NCBI RefSeq assembly: GCF_004342845.1
Contig: NZ_SLXB01000021.1
Coordinates: forward strand, 1 to 64,000
Direction: 5' to 3'
From: Prevotella heparinolytica
GTDB lineage: Bacteria; Bacteroidota; Bacteroidia; Bacteroidales; Bacteroidaceae
DNA length: 64,000 bases
In this document: positions 1,072-9,329 of the stretch, piece after piece
How positions within the stretch are numbered: position 1 is the stretch's first letter
Layout: the number at the start of each line of letters is the position of its first letter
Notes under the pieces: model-generated
The model's input: the letters and a program-made list of their open reading frames with translations, nothing else
The model's database searches: none
What the model was told of the DNA's origin: nothing
Made by a program: the position numbers and the translations under genes

Positions 1072-1102
1072 TTTGCATGCTTCGAAATAATATATACCTT
1101 TG
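1072..1102 (+). promoter_or_regulatory. Bacteroides-type promoter of the leucine leader
   Basis: TTTG at 1072-1075 and TACCTTTG at 1095-1102 match both elements of the Bacteroides primary sigma consensus (TTTG / TAnnTTTG), separated by the expected 19 bp. Transcription should start near 1108-1110, about 20 nt before the leader ATG at 1128. Confidence 0.8.
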
Positions 1103-1127
1103 TGGCATTAAAATAAAAAAGAACGGA

Positions 1128-1211
1128 ATGAATCAGAACTTTATATATATTCTACTGTGTGGTATTATTATTCTGCTAGCTATGTTTAGTGGAAGTGGGT
1201 ACTGTGCATGA
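1128..1211 (+). CDS. Ile/Leu-rich leader peptide of the leucine operon
   Basis: A 27-codon ORF (ATG 1128, TGA 1209-1211). Residues 6-17 read IYILLCGIIILL: five Ile and four Leu in a peptide of 27. It lies 20 nt downstream of a consensus promoter and immediately before a terminator hairpin (1240-1275), in the orientation of the downstream leu genes. Its last codons contain one strand of an antiterminator (1189-1199). This is the arrangement of leader peptides in transcription attenuation: stalling at scarce Ile/Leu tRNA would leave 1189-1199 free. It could be a small membrane peptide, but the RNA layout argues for a leader. Confidence 0.65.
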   Translation: MNQNFIYILLCGIIILLAMFSGSGYCA

Positions 1212-1275
1212 ATATATAGAAGATTTAATGAAATACGAAAGCCTTTCTCACTTCCATGTGTGAAAGGCTTTTTTA
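1189..1275 (+). promoter_or_regulatory. Attenuator: antiterminator and terminator pair
   Basis: Terminator: AGCCTTTCTCAC (1240-1251) pairs with GTGTGAAAGGCT (1258-1269) with one mismatch, followed by a T run at 1268-1274. Antiterminator: GTGGAAGTGGG (1189-1199) can pair with CTCACTTCCAT (1247-1257) over 11 bp including two G-U pairs, consuming the upper terminator arm. The two structures are mutually exclusive, and 1189-1199 lies inside the leader peptide ORF. Pairing was read by eye; no folding energy was computed. Confidence 0.65.
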
Positions 1276-1418: not shown

Positions 1419-2385
1419 TTATGGTCTTTCGGACTTGAACCCATCGACATACGGTTTCCCTTGCGTGACCACTGCAAAGGCTTGCCTTAGAAGTTTGTTG
1501 GCGACCGCAACGACCGCCACCTTACCGGGCTTGCCGTTAGACCGCAAACGGTCGAAACACGCCTTGCACTCGGAATTGCACCTGAGTGATGAGAATGCCG
1601 CCACATAGAGTTGGCTTCTGAGGTTTGAATCCCCGTTTCGGTTGATGTGACCTTTGACATTGACTGACGTACCGGATTGTTGGTAAGTAGGCGATAAGCC
1701 CAGATAACGGGAAAGTTGCTTGGCGTTATCAAAGTAGGTAAAACCCACCGGTGGCTACAATGAGTGCCGCTGCCAATGTGGCACCGATACCCTTGATGGA
1801 GGTGAGCAGGTCCATCTGCTTCTTGTACTCACCTTGTGCCAAGGAAGCAATCGTCTCTTCCATTGCCTTGATCTGCTTCTCCAGGAAAGTAATCGTCTTT
1901 TCGATGGTTTTCTTGCATTCAGGGTCGAAAGAAGGAAGGATTTCAAGTGAGCCTCTTAGGTTACGTGTTGCCACGAGTTGCTTCTTGAGTTGCCGCAGTA
2001 CCGTGCGCTTCTGCTTCAGGATGAGTATTGAATCGCTGCTCAGCTTGTAAGGAGTCGGTTGCATCCGCTCCCCGTACAGGGCTGTCAGACGAGCATCAAT
2101 CTCGTCCGTCTTGGTGACGGAGAGCATGGCTCGGGCGAAATTCTTTATCTTCAGCGGATTCTCAAGGCTGACGGTTATCCCGGCTTCGGAAAGCAGATAG
2201 ACGAGCAACGCACTATAATTGCCTGTTGCTTCCAAAACGCAATGGTGTTCTGCCGCTGAAACGGCCTGTATAAACTCATGTACACCTTTTACTGTGTTTT
2301 TAAATGTTTTTGTCCTGCCTGTCTTGGCGGACGAATAAGCGACAACGAAAGTCGCCTTGCTGACATCGATTCCAACGTAGGTCAT
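1419..2385 (-). pseudogene. IS110-family transposase, frameshifted
   Basis: Two overlapping frames make up one transposase of about 327 residues. The N-terminal part (1729-2385, 218 residues) has the RuvC-like DEDD domain: MTYVGIDVSKATF near residue 1, a Glu in CVLEATGNY and TDEIDA near residue 115. The C-terminal part (1419-1748) has the transposase_20 domain, including YLGLSPTYQQSGTS with the expected Ser. The reading changes at the GGTGGGTTTT run around 1737-1749: expected ...ATGGFTYFDN... is broken into ...ATGGFYLL-stop, consistent with one extra base. No typical slippery site is seen and family members are normally read in one frame, so this copy is probably dead; recoding or a sequencing error cannot be excluded. 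Confidence 0.85.
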
Positions 2386-2598: not shown

Positions 2599-4098
2599 AT
2601 GATGAGTGACAGATTGTTTATTTTCGACACAACGCTTCGCGATGGTGAGCAGGTTCCCGGTTGTCAATTGAACACTGTAGAAAAGATACAAGTGGCAAAG
2701 CAATTGGAACTGCTGGGAGTGGATGTGATTGAAGCGGGATTTCCTGTTTCGAGCCCGGGGGATTTCAATTCGGTGATTGAAATATCAAAGGCTGTGACAT
2801 GGCCCGCTATTTGTGCCTTGACACGTGCCGTTCAAAGAGATATTGACGTAGCGGCAGAGGCTTTGCAGTTTGCTAAGCGTAAGCGTATTCATACGGGGAT
2901 TGGTACATCCGATTCGCATATCAAGTATAAATTCAATTCTAATCGTGAGGAAATTATAGAACGTGCGGTAGCTGCCGTGAAGTATGCTCGCAAATATGTG
3001 GATGATGTGGAGTTTTATGCCGAAGATGCCGGGCGCACGGATAACGAATATTTGGCACGTGTGGTAGAAGCTGTAATCAAGGCGGGTGCTACGGTAGTGA
3101 ATATCCCTGATACAACGGGCTATTGTTTGCCTTCTGAGTATGGTGCAAAAATAAAATATCTGATGGAACATGTTGACGGTATACATAATGCCATCCTCTC
3201 TACCCATTGTCATAACGATTTGGGTATGGCTACGGCAAATACGATGGCCGGTGTGCAGAATGGTGCTCGTCAGGTGGAAGTGACCGTTAACGGTATAGGA
3301 GAGCGTGCAGGGAACACTTCTCTTGAAGAGGTTGCGATGATAATCAAGTGTCATAACGATATTGATATTGAAACCAATATCAATACCCAGAAAATTTATC
3401 CGACCAGCCGGATGGTATCCAGCTTGATGAATATGCCTGTACAACCTAATAAAGCGATTGTAGGTCGTAACGCTTTTGCCCATTCTTCGGGCATTCATCA
3501 GGATGGTGTGTTGAAAAATGTACAGACCTATGAAATTATCAACCCGCGTGATGTGGGGATTGATGATAATTCCATCGTACTGACTGCACGTAGTGGCCGC
3601 GCCGCATTGAAAAATCGTTTGTCTGCATTGGGAGTGAATCCTACGCAGGATAAACTGAACGAAATATATGATGAGTTCTTGAAGCTTGCAGATAAAAAGA
3701 AAGATATCAATGACGATGATATTTTGGTATTGGCAGGAGCAGACCGTTCGCAACACCACCGCATTAAGTTGGAGTATTTGCAAGTGACCAGTGGGGTAGG
3801 GGTACGTTCGGTTGCCAGCTTGGGATTGAGTATATCCGGTGAAAAGTTCGAAGCTGCAGCCAGTGGGAATGGTCCGGTAGATGCTGCCATCAAGGCTCTG
3901 AAGAAAATAATCAACCGCCACATGACATTGAAAGAATTTACGATTCAGGCCATCAGTAAGGGTAGCGATGATATGGGTAAGGTGCACATGCAGGTGGAAT
4001 ATGATAATCATGTTTATTATGGATTCGGTGCCAATACCGATATTATAGCCGCTTCTGTTGAAGCTTATATTGATTGTATCAATAAGTTTAAGATGTAA
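2599..4098 (+). CDS. leuA: 2-isopropylmalate synthase
   Basis: Cytosolic enzyme condensing acetyl-CoA with 2-ketoisovalerate, the first committed step of leucine synthesis. It has 499 residues, the usual size of the long form. The HMGL-like TIM barrel carries the [10 protein letters not shown] motif (residues 9-18) and metal-binding H203 and H205 in THCHNDLG; the C-terminal LeuA dimer/regulatory domain (about 365-499), which binds leucine for feedback inhibition, is present. Start is ATG 2599 or the adjacent ATG 2602. First gene of leuA-C-D-(cimA-like)-B. Its attenuator lies 1.3 kb upstream, beyond the IS110 element. Confidence 0.95.
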
Positions 4099-4254: not shown

Positions 4255-5649
4255 ATGAATACATTATTTGATAAGATTTGGGATGCACACATTGTGCAGG
4301 AAGTGAAAGACGGTCCCACACAACTTTATATAGATAGGCTTTACTGTCACGAAGTCACCAGCCCGCAGGCCTTTTCAGGCTTGCGCGAACGCGGCATTAA
4401 ATGTTTTCGTCCGGAGAAGATATTCTGCATGCCTGATCACAATACTCCGACGCACGATCAGGACAAACCTATTGAGGATGCCATCTCAAGGACTCAGGTG
4501 GACACATTGGCCAAGAATGCGAAAGACTTCGGCCTCACTTATTTTGGCATGATGGACGAGAAAAACGGTATCATCCATGTGGTAGGTCCGGAACGAGGAC
4601 TGACTTTGCCGGGTATGACCATTGTCTGCGGTGACTCGCATACATCGACTCACGGCGCAATGGGCGCAGTGGCATTTGGCATCGGAACGAGTGAGGTGGA
4701 AATGGTGATGGCTTCGCAGTGCATTCTCCAAACACGCCCAAAGACGATGCGTATCACGATTGATGGTAAGCTTGGAAAAGGAGTGATGGCAAAAGATATG
4801 GCTTTGTACATGATGTCGAAAATGACAACCAGCGGTGCCACAGGATATTTTGTAGAGTATGCCGGAGAAGCCGTGCGCAGTCTGACAATGGAAGGCCGGT
4901 TGACTTTGTGTAACCTGAGCATAGAGATGGGGGCACGCGGTGGTATGATTGCTCCGGATGAAACCACTTTTGAGTATATCAAAGGAAGAGAGTATGCGCC
5001 GATAGGTGAAGCATGGAATACGTCGCTGGCTTATTGGAAAACATTGAAGAGTGACGAAAATGCAGTGTTCGATAAGGAAGTACGCTTTGCTGCCGAGGAC
5101 ATTGAACCGATGATTACCTACGGCACTAATCCGGGTATGGGCATGGGTATTACAAATTCCATCCCTACCACCGAGGGCATGGATGAAGCCTCCCGGACTT
5201 CGTTTGAGAAGTCATTGGATTATATGGGATTTCAACCGGGAGAGCCTTTGCTGGGTAAGAAGATTGACTATGTGTTTTTGGGCGCTTGTACCAACGGCCG
5301 CATTGAAGATTTCCGTGCATTCGCTTCCATTGTGAGGGGGCGTAAGAAAGCCGACGGTGTGGTGGCATGGTTGGTGCCCGGTTCATGGATGGTAGACGCG
5401 CAGATTCGTGAAGAAGGGTTGGACAAGATTCTGAAAGAAGCCGGGTTTGCCATCCGACAACCGGGGTGTTCCGCTTGTCTGGCTATGAATGACGACAAAG
5501 TTCCTGCCGGCAAATATGCGGTATCTACCAGCAATCGTAATTTTGAAGGACGTCAAGGCCCGGGTTCCAGAACGTTGCTTGCCAGCCCGATGGTGGCTGC
5601 CGCTGCTGCGGTGACAGGGGTTATTACCGACCCGAGAGAACTCTTTTGA
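4255..5649 (+). CDS. leuC: 3-isopropylmalate dehydratase, large subunit
   Basis: With LeuD it isomerises 2-isopropylmalate to 3-isopropylmalate using a [4Fe-4S] cluster. At 464 residues it is of normal length for the bacterial LeuC/aconitase family. Cluster ligands are visible: C345 in GACTNGR and C405/C408 in [21 protein letters not shown], another family signature, is at about residues 125-135. It follows leuA by 156 bp and is separated from leuD by 409 bp of repetitive and hairpin-forming DNA, so the two subunits are less tightly coupled than usual. Confidence 0.95.
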
Positions 5650-5782
5650 TTGCTGAGTAGTAATCTGAATTCGATATAACGTGTTGGATATGGACTGCAT
5701 CCGTACAAGAAAAAGCCTTTCATCGGCGTATAAAAACCTGTCTTTGCCTTATCTAAGACGGAAAGAGATTAGGGAGAAAACT

Positions 5783-5845
5783 TCATATAAGGGCTTTATA
5801 TTTACATATAAAGGCGCGATAATTATATATAAGTGCTTTATAAGT
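5783..5845. repeat. Three tandem 21-bp AT-rich units
   Basis: Units at 5783-5803, 5804-5824 and 5825-5845 share the pattern nnATATAAgtGCtttATAann; the first and third match best (ATATAAGGGCTTTATA and ATATAAGTGCTTTATA, each nearly palindromic). The period of exactly 21 bp is shared with the central part of the array at 43143-43205. Confidence 0.6.
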
Positions 5846-5875
5846 AGATTTCTTCCGTTAGGGGAGAATGTTTTC

Positions 5876-5925
5876 AAGCAGGTCTCATCATCTTTCGGAC
5901 GATGTCCCGTCTGCTTCTTTTCTTA
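5876..5925 (+). terminator. Hairpin with T-rich tail between leuC and leuD
   Basis: AAGCAG (5876-5881) pairs with CTGCTT (5911-5916), with an inner CATC/GATG stem and a CTTTTCTT tail, all in the direction of the operon. It may end part of the leuAC transcript or act as a second regulatory point before leuD. No other gene was found in 5650-6058; the ORF spanning 5681-6019 is repeat-derived and lacks a credible start. Confidence 0.5.
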
Positions 5926-6058
5926 TATCGAACTCCTGTTAAGCAGACGATTCGCACGTATGGCTGAAGCCGGATCGCGGATGCGGAGTTGTCATGAAAA
6001 CAAAATGATTGAAACATAAAAATTGATTTGTACATTTACTTAAATTGCAGATAGAGAG

Positions 6059-6658
6059 ATGAAACAGAAATTCAATATCATCACCAGTACTTGCGTGCCC
6101 CTTCCATTAGAGAATGTCGATACGGATCAGATAATCCCGGCGCGTTTTCTGAAAGCCACTACCCGCGAGGAGAAATTCTTCGGAGACAATCTGTTCCGTG
6201 ATTGGCGTTATAATCCGGACGGTTCTCTGAATAAAGATTTTGTGTTGAACAATCCTGCTTATGGCGGGCAGATTCTGGTGGCAGGAAAAAACTTCGGTTC
6301 AGGCTCCAGTCGTGAGCATGCGGCTTGGGCCATTGCCGGTTACGGTTTCCGTGTGGTGGTGTCCAGCTTCTTTGCGGATATCCATAAAAACAACGAGTTG
6401 AACAATTTCGTGCTTCCGGTGGTAGTGAGCGAGCCGTTCTTGAAAGAACTGTTCGACTCCATATTCGCCAATCCTAAAGTGCAGGTCGAAGTGAACTTGC
6501 CCGAACAAACCATCACCAATAAGGCAACAGGCAAGAGCGAACGTTTTGAGATTAACGCTTACAAGAAGCATTGTCTGATGCATGGATTGGACGACATAGA
6601 TTTTTTAGTGGGAAATAAAGATAAGATAGAAGCTTGGGAGAATAAAAATGAAGCATGA
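6059..6658 (+). CDS. leuD: 3-isopropylmalate dehydratase, small subunit
   Basis: Swivel-domain subunit of isopropylmalate isomerase, 199 residues. The N-terminus MKQKFNIITSTCVPLPLENVDTDQIIPARF and the GKNFGSGSSREHAAWA motif (near residue 77-92) are diagnostic of LeuD. It overlaps the following synthase gene by 11 bp, so the two are likely translationally coupled. Upstream is the hairpin-containing leuC-leuD gap. Confidence 0.95.
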   Translation: MKQKFNIITSTCVPLPLENVDTDQIIPARFLKATTREEKFFGDNLFRDWRYNPDGSLNKDFVLNNPAYGGQILVAGKNFGSGSSREHAAWAIAGYGFRVVVSSFFADIHKNNELNNFVLPVVVSEPFLKELFDSIFANPKVQVEVNLPEQTITNKATGKSERFEINAYKKHCLMHGLDDIDFLVGNKDKIEAWENKNEA

Positions 6659-8195
6659 TTATCCGAAGATAGAAATCATGGACACCACACTTCGTGACGG
6701 CGAACAGACCAGCGGAGTATCTTTTGTGCCCCATGAGAAGTTGATGATTGCCCGTCTGCTGCTGGAAGAGTTGAAGGTGGACAGGGTAGAGGTAGCTTCT
6801 GCAAGAGTGTCCGATGGAGAGTTCCAGGCGGTGAAGATGATTTGCGACTGGGCAGCTCGTCGCAATCTGTTGCCGAAGGTAGAAGTACTTGGCTTTGTGG
6901 ATGGGCACACCTCGGTAGACTGGATACATGCTACCGGTTGCCGTGTCATTAATCTGTTATGCAAGGGTTCGTTGAAGCATTGCATGTGTCAGTTGAAGAA
7001 AAGTCCGGAGGAACATATTGAAGACATTCTGGCCGTGGTGAGCTATGCGAACAAGCGGGACATGGAAGTGAATGTATATCTGGAAGATTGGAGCAATGGC
7101 ATGAAAGACTCTCCCGAATATGTTTTCCAATTGATGGAAGCTTTGATTCAGACCAATATAAAACGCTATATGTTGCCCGATACACTCGGTATACTGAATC
7201 CGTTGCAGGTCATTGAGTTTATGCGCAAGATGGTGAAGCGTTATCCGTATGCTCATTTCGATTTCCATGCGCACAATGATTACGATCTTGCCGTGAGTAA
7301 TGTACTTGCCGCCGTGTTGAGCGGCTGCAAGGGGCTGCATACCACCATCAACGGTCTGGGCGAACGGGCCGGGAATGCTCCGCTTGCCAGTGTGCAGGCC
7401 ATCCTGAAGGACCATTTCAGTGCGGTGACCAACATTGACGAGAACCGTCTGAACGATGTGAGCCGTGTGGTGGAATCCTATTCGGGCATCGTTATTCCGG
7501 CCAATAAGCCGATTGTGGGTGAGAACGTGTTTACGCAGGTGGCGGGAGTTCATGCCGACGGTGACAACAAAAGCAACCTTTATTGCAACGACCTGTTGCC
7601 CGAACGTTTCGGCCGTAAGCGTGAATATGCTCTGGGCAAGAACAGCGGTAAAGCCAATATACGGAAGAATCTGGAAGACTTGGGCTTGCAACTGGACGAG
7701 GAGGCCATGCGCAAAGTCACTGAACGCATCATTGAACTGGGCGACAAGAAAGAATTAGTGACACAGGAAGACTTGCCTTACATCGTCTCGGATGTTTTGA
7801 AGCATGGAGTGGTGGAAGAACGTGTCAGCCTGAAGAGCTATATCGTGAATCTGGCCTATGGATTGAAGCCGATGGCCACGCTGAAAATAGAAATCAACGG
7901 CAAGGAATACGAAGAAAGCTCCAGTGGAGACGGACAATACGACGCTTTTGTGCGTGCGTTGCGCAAGATATATAAGGTGACGTTGGGACGTAAATTTCCG
8001 ATGCTGACGAACTATGCCGTAACCATTCCTCCCGGCGGGCGCACCGATGCCTTTGTGCAGACGGTCATCACATGGAGTTTTGAAGACAAGATGTTTCGCA
8101 CGCGCGGTCTTGATGCCGACCAGACGGAAGCTGCCATCAAAGCAACGGTGAAGATGCTGAACATTATAGAGGGCGAGTATGAAAAGAAGGGGTAG
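6648..8195 (+). CDS. LeuA-family synthase, probably (R)-citramalate synthase
   Basis: A second HMGL-like condensing enzyme of 515 residues. It has [10 protein letters not shown] (11-20), the metal ligands H207 and H209 in FHAHNDYD and a C-terminal LeuA-type allosteric domain. It is clearly divergent from the LeuA at 2599 (for example TSGVSFVPHEK after the DGEQ motif). Such second copies within leu operons are often citramalate synthases (pyruvate + acetyl-CoA), giving a threonine-independent route to isoleucine that reuses LeuCD and LeuB; the mixed Ile/Leu leader peptide upstream fits this. Another 2-keto acid substrate is possible. Start overlaps the leuD end. Confidence 0.75.
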   Translation: MKHDYPKIEIMDTTLRDGEQTSGVSFVPHEKLMIARLLLEELKVDRVEVASARVSDGEFQAVKMICDWAARRNLLPKVEVLGFVDGHTSVDWIHATGCRVINLLCKGSLKHCMCQLKKSPEEHIEDILAVVSYANKRDMEVNVYLEDWSNGMKDSPEYVFQLMEALIQTNIKRYMLPDTLGILNPLQVIEFMRKMVKRYPYAHFDFHAHNDYDLAVSNVLAAVLSGCKGLHTTINGLGERAGNAPLASVQAILKDHFSAVTNIDENRLNDVSRVVESYSGIVIPANKPIVGENVFTQVAGVHADGDNKSNLYCNDLLPERFGRKREYALGKNSGKANIRKNLEDLGLQLDEEAMRKVTERIIELGDKKELVTQEDLPYIVSDVLKHGVVEERVSLKSYIVNLAYGLKPMATLKIEINGKEYEESSSGDGQYDAFVRALRKIYKVTLGRKFPMLTNYAVTIPPGGRTDAFVQTVITWSFEDKMFRTRGLDADQTEAAIKATVKMLNIIEGEYEKKG

Positions 8196-8267: not shown

Positions 8268-9329
8268 ATGGAGTTTAAAATTGCCGTATTGGCCGGTGAT
8301 GGTATCGGCCCTGAGATTTCCGCCGTAGGTGTGGATGTAATGACTGCCGTGTGCGAGAAATTCGGACACAAAGTGAGTTATGAATATGCCATCTGTGGTG
8401 CAGATGCCATAGACAAAGTAGGTGACCCTTTTCCCGAAGCTACTTATGAGGCTTGTAAGAATGCGGATGCCGTACTTTTTTCGGCTGTGGGCGACCCGAA
8501 GTTCGACAATGACCCTACGGCAAAAGTACGTCCCGAACAGGGGCTGCTGGCTATGCGCAAGAAACTGGGCTTGTTTGCCAACATCCGTCCGGTGCAGACC
8601 TTCAAGTGCCTGCTTCATAAATCCCCGCTTCGTGCGGAACTGGTGGACAGGGCAGATTTCCTGTGCATCCGTGAGCTGACGGGCGGTATGTATTTCGGCG
8701 AAAAGTATCAGGACAACGACAAGGCGTATGACACGAACATGTACACCCGTTCTGAAATTGAGCGTATTTTGAAGGTAGGGTTTGAGTATGCCATGAAGCG
8801 CCGCAAGCACCTCACGGTGGTGGATAAGGCCAACGTGCTGGCTTCTTCCCGGTTGTGGCGACAGATTGCCCAGGAAATGGCCCCCCTTTATCCCGAAGTG
8901 ACTACCGATTATATGTATGTGGACAATGCTGCCATGCGTATGATTCAGGAACCTAAGTTTTTTGACGTGATGGTAACGGAGAATACTTTTGGCGATATCC
9001 TGACGGACGAAGGTTCTTGTATCAGCGGTTCCATGGGGTTGCTCCCTTCCGCCTCTACCGGCGAAAGCACACCGGTGTTCGAACCGATTCATGGCTCTTG
9101 GCCGCAAGCCAAGGGGCTGAACATCGCCAATCCGTTGGCGCAGATTCTTTCGGTAGCCATGTTGTTCGAGTACTTCGACTTGAAAGAAGAAGGAGCATTG
9201 ATTCGTAAGGTTGTCGATGCTTCTCTTGAGGCTGATGTCCGCACTCCGGAGATTCAGGTGGAGGGTGGTGCGAAATACGGCACGAAGGAAGTAGGGGCAT
9301 GGATTGTTGATGCCATCAATGCTTGCTGA
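8268..9329 (+). CDS. leuB: 3-isopropylmalate dehydrogenase
   Basis: NAD-dependent oxidative decarboxylation of 3-isopropylmalate, third step of leucine synthesis; homologues also act on 3-methylmalate in the citramalate route. 353 residues, standard for the family. The N-terminus [17 protein letters not shown], the substrate motif [11 protein letters not shown], the Asp-rich [15 protein letters not shown] and FEPIHGSWP near 265 identify it. Last gene of the operon, 72 bp after the citramalate-type synthase and followed by a long hairpin terminator. Confidence 0.95.

Follow-up and report, generated by a model that had tools for sequence, protein, structure and literature searches.

Is the short region that precedes the leucine operon of Prevotella heparinolytica a leader-peptide attenuator, and if so, which amino acids would it sense and does it still govern the genes downstream? 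We analyzed a window of 64,000 nucleotides (contig NZ_SLXB01000021.1, positions 1 to 64,000) from a 3.64-Mb genome closely related to Bacteroides and Phocaeicola. The initial annotation of this DNA had described trp/leu-type attenuation, and the whole leader region (1072-1277) indeed comprises a promoter, an Ile/Leu-rich leader ORF, a terminator, and an antiterminator pairing. Judged from the sequence and its comparison with relatives, these elements very probably form a ribosome-mediated transcription attenuator of the leu/trp/his type that responds to isoleucine and leucine.

Results

A leader ORF and alternative RNA pairings in the window

The promoter claimed by the initial annotation was recovered on the forward strand at 1072-1102, with a -33 element TTTG (1072-1075), a 19-nt spacer, and a -7 element TACCTTTG (1095-1102), which match the Bacteroides -33/-7 consensus and would place the transcription start near 1109. 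A sigma-70 promoter scan, irrelevant for Bacteroides, did not detect the 1072-1102 promoter. The leader ORF occupies 1128-1211 on the same strand and encodes 27 codons, MNQNFIYILLCGIIILLAMFSGSGYCA, followed by a stop; these coordinates are exact and the ORF is kept in relatives. Its five isoleucines (residues 6, 8, 13, 14, and 15) and four leucines (residues 9, 10, 16, and 17) lie between residues 6 and 17, as had been described, with their codons at 1143-1178. When 1103-1290 was shuffled 3000 times with its dinucleotides preserved, 5 of the shuffles contained an ORF with at least nine Ile/Leu in 12 residues. No Shine-Dalgarno sequence is evident before the ORF.

Downstream, an intrinsic terminator (3:4 hairpin plus U run, forward strand) folds with -19.4 kcal/mol and z = -7.2, and none of 200 shuffles folded equally well. 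The terminator first placed at 1240-1275 thus stands, with a slightly wider span of 1237-1275. A rule-based terminator scan reported nothing at 1237-1275 despite this strong fold, probably owing to its fixed stem and loop rules. The 11-bp pairing said to exclude the terminator is also present: strand 2 (1189-1199, forward strand), the 5′ half of the antiterminator within the last leader codons, pairs with strand 3 (1247-1257, forward strand), the 3′ half, which is part of the terminator 5′ arm and loop. The 11 pairs include 2 G-U, amount to about -15 to -19 kcal/mol, and are mutually exclusive with the terminator. Taken in isolation the antiterminator fold is unexceptional (z = -1.2), so its support comes from the comparison with relatives given below. 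Folding and alignment together place a 1:2 protector hairpin at 1133-1231 (forward strand), whose inner stem pairs the regulatory Ile-Leu-Leu codons (1171-1179) with strand 2 at 1186-1194. The last Leu codon (1176), strand 2 (1189-1199), and the stop codon (1209) are spaced in a way that, given the footprint of a ribosome, fits a scheme of stalling and covering.

Under this scheme, RNA polymerase would start near 1109 and a ribosome would begin the leader peptide. Were charged Ile- or Leu-tRNA short, the ribosome would stall at codons 6-17 (1143-1178) and open the 1:2 hairpin that ties these regulatory codons to strand 2; the freed strand 2 (1189-1199) could then pair with strand 3 (1247-1257), block the terminator, and let transcription enter the Leu/Ile operon. 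With isoleucine and leucine plentiful, the ribosome would reach the stop codon (1209) and cover strand 2, while without translation the 1:2 hairpin would retain it. With strand 2 covered or held, the 3:4 terminator would form and transcription would end near 1275. The sequence elements, their conservation and covariation, the genes they accompany, and the match of the leader residues are observed here, whereas termination, stalling of the ribosome, and a response to amino acids are predictions.

The operon and its interruption by an IS110 element

The genes downstream, all intact and on the forward strand, are ordered leuA-leuC-leuD-citramalate synthase-like-leuB. They comprise leuA for 2-isopropylmalate synthase (2599-4098; NF002086, 750 bits against a cut-off of 532), leuC (4255-5649), leuD (6059-6658), a citramalate-synthase-like gene of the isoleucine branch (6648-8195), and leuB (8268-9329), with leuC, leuD, and leuB assigned by profile matches. 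The product of 6648-8195 matches NF042433 (CimA) best, with 658 bits, below the curated cut-off of 950, versus 339 bits for the best LeuA model, and 68 of 78 relatives have this fourth operon gene downstream. In the known pathways, LeuCD and LeuB can act in leucine synthesis and in the citramalate route to isoleucine alike. The operon is predicted to make leucine and, probably, isoleucine as well, and its citramalate-synthase-like gene would explain why the leader carries Ile in addition to Leu codons.

Further features of this part of the window were observed. The gap between leuC and leuD (5650-6058, 409 nt) is long relative to most relatives, which have ~50 nt or less, and neither repeats nor a clear gene were found in it. 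The contig opens with a 5S rRNA gene (1-90), so that the leu operon adjoins a ribosomal RNA operon, and an ORF at 100-471 includes a predicted small Cys-rich lipoprotein (~226-471; MKTKILLAAAAVAFSFVVTSCGNKK...CDKKECDKACDKK) that could bind metal.

In the window genome, leuA is not adjacent to the leader. Although all elements of an attenuator of leuA are present, an IS110-family insertion sequence of about 1294 bp, unnoticed in the initial annotation, occupies about 1286-2584 between the terminator and leuA, inserted at ATGAA and antisense to the operon. It is absent in relatives, where about 80 to 210 bases separate the leader stop codon from leuA. Its transposase gene (1419-2385, reverse strand) is frameshifted into two frames (1729-2385 and 1419-1748); a 94% second copy on contig C51 has one intact 321-aa transposase ORF (L003) that matches NF033542. 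Control of leuA by the attenuator in this strain is uncertain, and RNA may still reach leuA through IS110.

It is conceivable, and we would not dismiss it lightly, that the attenuator of the window genome is a disconnected relic, IS110 having cut off leuA, which would then be served by another promoter or be silenced by polarity. The antisense orientation of the element, its frameshifted transposase, and the short distance from leader to leuA in relatives all favor this. We nevertheless hold it to be the less probable course of events: every attenuator element is intact and without sign of decay, as are the operon genes, the insertion is possibly young, and the forward strand of IS110 offers no good Bacteroides promoter near leuA, the best being a one-mismatch site 951 bp away.

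The same distances speak to the idea that translation of the leader acts mainly on translation or reinitiation at leuA, and not on termination. Leaders that lie 10-15 nt before a gene can supply reinitiating ribosomes (PMC4833913), but leuA usually begins about 80-150 nt beyond the leader stop, a strong terminator separates the two, and in the window genome reinitiation would be implausible across 1.3 kb; we thus consider this very improbable.

Conservation and covariation 5′ of leuA

We gathered leuA loci by similarity to leuA or by DNA search with the leader region, and picked terminators in relatives near leuA while avoiding those of upstream genes. The leader region was detectable by DNA search in 106 of 120 same-genus genomes, and a leader ORF, terminator, and antiterminator were found 5′ of leuA at 92 examined loci, 85 of them distinct. 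Genomes of Bacteroides, Phocaeicola, Prevotella type, and Parabacteroides all have the leader and terminator immediately 5′ of leuA, and typical peptides of relatives are MIQNFTYILLCGIIILLAKFSGSECCA, MTQRQNLHIIINIIIRLQRAGGSVKVCM (Prevotella type), and MEQILRNSLLNSLGIIIILLWQQDRK (Parabacteroides). The initial annotation had asked for a check of the ORF and of the 1189-1199/1247-1257 pairing in relatives, and both are conserved; the Ile/Leu codons are conserved 5′ of leuA, and the stems covary. Four loci (L023, L036, L043, and L076) have a shifted frame that puts the leader stop codon within GGAAGTGA, the element that forms strand 2, and there the RNA is retained although the end of the peptide changes; strand 2 being kept despite the frame shift indicates that the RNA, and not the peptide alone, is under selection.

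The covariation alignment comprises 78 sequences. In the terminator, 98.5% of cells are paired and 8 of 12 pairs show double changes (kinship not fully corrected). In the antiterminator, 87.1% of cells are paired versus 30-62% in slid versions (again with kinship not fully corrected), and 6 pairs have changes on both sides; a position at the loop edge covaries (T:A in 18, C:G in 13, and G:C in 7), and the core GGAAGTG/CACTTCC is nearly invariant, so that support at the core is mostly conservation. For the 1:2 hairpin, 72.0% of cells are paired versus 34-50% when slid, with a covariation score of 0.242 against 0.186 in shuffled alignments (0 of 500 as high, in shuffles that ignore kinship). Support for this predicted hairpin is weaker than for the terminator and antiterminator.

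Each strand 2 also fits the terminator of its own locus. Duplexes of strand 2 with its own terminator arm average -18.1 kcal/mol versus -16.7 kcal/mol (sd 0.16) when partners are permuted, and none of 10,000 permutations was as good, relatedness being uncorrected. Divergent members, read directly, re-form the antiterminator with other bases: GCTCGGAGTGAGAGAG/CTTTCTCATTCCGAGC in L075, CAAGTGAG/CTCACTTG in L057, and GTGGGAAAG/CTTTCCCAC in L043.

Codon choice in the leaders is also skewed. Among Leu codons, CTA accounts for 44.5% in the leaders of relatives versus 3.1% in window genes, which resembles the use of rare codons known from enterobacterial leu leaders. Pairing of CTACT with strand 2 may also select for CTA, and the enrichment may stem partly from pairing.

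Distribution of the leader in Bacteroidales

We built a covariance model, R1, from the leuA leaders alone, without gene information, and applied it with strict filters. R1 matched in 68 of 247 Bacteroidales genomes, spread over 50 of 165 genera, and all 30 fetched loci lie directly before leuA (24) or ilvD (6), where the leaders contain valine in addition. The other 179 of the 247 genomes gave no match under these strict filters, and some of them may not carry leuA. A match of R1 to the minus strand of the window at 1232-1353 was rejected as the terminator read backwards. In a crude scan of a phylum-wide sample, mainly from other classes and orders, most leuA loci of non-Bacteroidales Bacteroidota had no clear leader 5′ of leuA.

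Candidate leaders of other amino acid operons in the same genome

A search of chosen operons of the same genome gave further candidate leaders. The ilvD operon is preceded by the leader MNLHTSINLAVLHIIRVVVVTLGA (VVVV; L113 1228-1302, terminator at 1345, ilvD at 1399), which has an antiterminator of 13 bp across its stop codon and is also matched by the R1 leu model. Before the his operon stands MNIILAHHHHHHPGE (HHHHHH; L114 1124-1171, terminator at 1211, hisG at 1357), and of 30 Bacteroidales hisG loci, almost every one from a different family, most have a His-run leader in this place. The trp genes have the leader MRTISVNTYWWWRPLQLRQS (WWW; L148 2990-3142, reverse strand), a match to the Bacteroid-trp family RF01692 with 94 bits. 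The Phe/Tyr-rich leader MKSFAYAYYFFFYFYFGRKVEREFVCVK (L150 1297-1383, terminator at 1428) precedes a prephenate dehydratase gene at 1492. Each of these four leaders is preceded by the same -7 pattern, TAnnTTTG, as the leu leader, and each has a terminator; antiterminator pairings are clear in the ilv, his, and phe leaders and less clear in the trp leader. The residues of each sister leader match the products of its own operon. Together with the conserved and covarying elements 5′ of leuA and ilvD, this match bears out the trp/leu-type attenuation that had been proposed.

In the ~340 nt 5′ of thrA (L151 700-1039) we found no clear terminator, and we do not claim a leader there. This region does hold a promoter-like site, together with a short ORF that has several Thr/Met codons (MNKYYQHTVTSMWTMTLRG), a possible Thr/Met leader.

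These comparisons leave little room for the suggestion that the product of the ORF is a small membrane protein of one hydrophobic helix with a function of its own, with the terminator just ending its short transcript. The stretch IYILLCGIIILLAMF would form a transmembrane helix and close relatives have kept the peptide; however, Arg or Asn interrupts the hydrophobic run in Prevotella-type genomes (IINIIIRLQRAGGS), the C-terminus switches frame while the RNA stays, the alternative RNA pairings covary, and the residues follow the operon, with Val in ilv, His in his, and Trp in trp. We judge such a function highly unlikely.

Comparison with RNA families

Rfam searches at the leu leader returned no match above gathering score to the enterobacterial leader families or to the T-box, and no match to the RF01692 covariance model. 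The leu, ilv, his, and phe leaders matched no Rfam family; the trp leader alone did. The trpB motif RF04312 aligned with the leu leader at full length with a sub-threshold 27.2 bits (gathering score 59; E 0.5), and was rejected as a match at chance level. A ligand-binding riboswitch, a T-box, or a protein-dependent attenuator, whose output stage would likewise be a terminator with an alternative pairing, is least probable of all in place of a ribosome-dependent device, since Rfam 15 gives no T-box or riboswitch match and every match in the region scores far below gathering, an aptamer-like conserved core is absent, and the sole strongly conserved upstream part is the Ile/Leu coding run, with a strand 2 that can be covered at the stop codon.

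Discussion

Our analysis favors a ribosome-mediated attenuator 5′ of leuA, and we lean toward a broader proposal in which Bacteroidales govern amino acid synthesis largely by leader-peptide attenuation, with an almost full set of such devices (leu, ilv, his, trp, and phe/tyr). Within that set, the leu leader would be a dual sensor of isoleucine and leucine that uses its regulatory codons as strand 1, such that the protector hairpin would be opened directly by the ribosome that stalls on them. The leu attenuator offers a concrete and testable route of ribosome-based amino acid sensing for dominant gut bacteria, and amino acid regulation has been little studied in their lineage. The analysis supplies coordinates and predicted strands together with a covariance model, and extends the list of leader peptides overlooked by annotation.

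The mechanism itself is classical and belongs to the textbook, and Bacteroidota already have known or suggested cases of peptide-leader attenuation. The initial annotation had called attenuators of this type little described in the phylum, which holds insofar as the leu leader matches no Rfam family and we found no description of a leu leader in Bacteroides in open-licence papers. It needs qualifying in that the Bacteroid-trp leader (Rfam RF01692) of Bacteroidetes was published in 2010 by Weinberg (PMC2864571), and in that leader peptide attenuation has been suggested for Flavobacterium psychrophilum, where pheA and hisG have conserved 5′ elements (PMC9723704). The Bacteroid-trp leader shares the phylum and the presumed mechanism with the leu leader, but has Trp codons and precedes the trp operon. 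The Flavobacterium psychrophilum elements come from the same phylum but a different class, and the main text of that report names no leuA example (PMC9723704). The trpB motif RF04312, which is reported to lie upstream of amino acid transporters in Firmicutes and Fusobacteria (PMC11109978), shares with the leu leader a terminator and an anti-terminator.

The closest parallels in architecture are the enterobacterial leu, ilvGMEDA, his, and trp leaders, which have the same succession of a promoter, a short ORF rich in codons for the product, 1:2, 2:3, and 3:4 pairings, and a U-run terminator before the first gene. Compared with these, the leu leader described here is unrelated in sequence, has a Bacteroides promoter and no evident Shine-Dalgarno sequence, combines Ile and Leu in mixed control, and pairs the regulatory codons themselves with strand 2.
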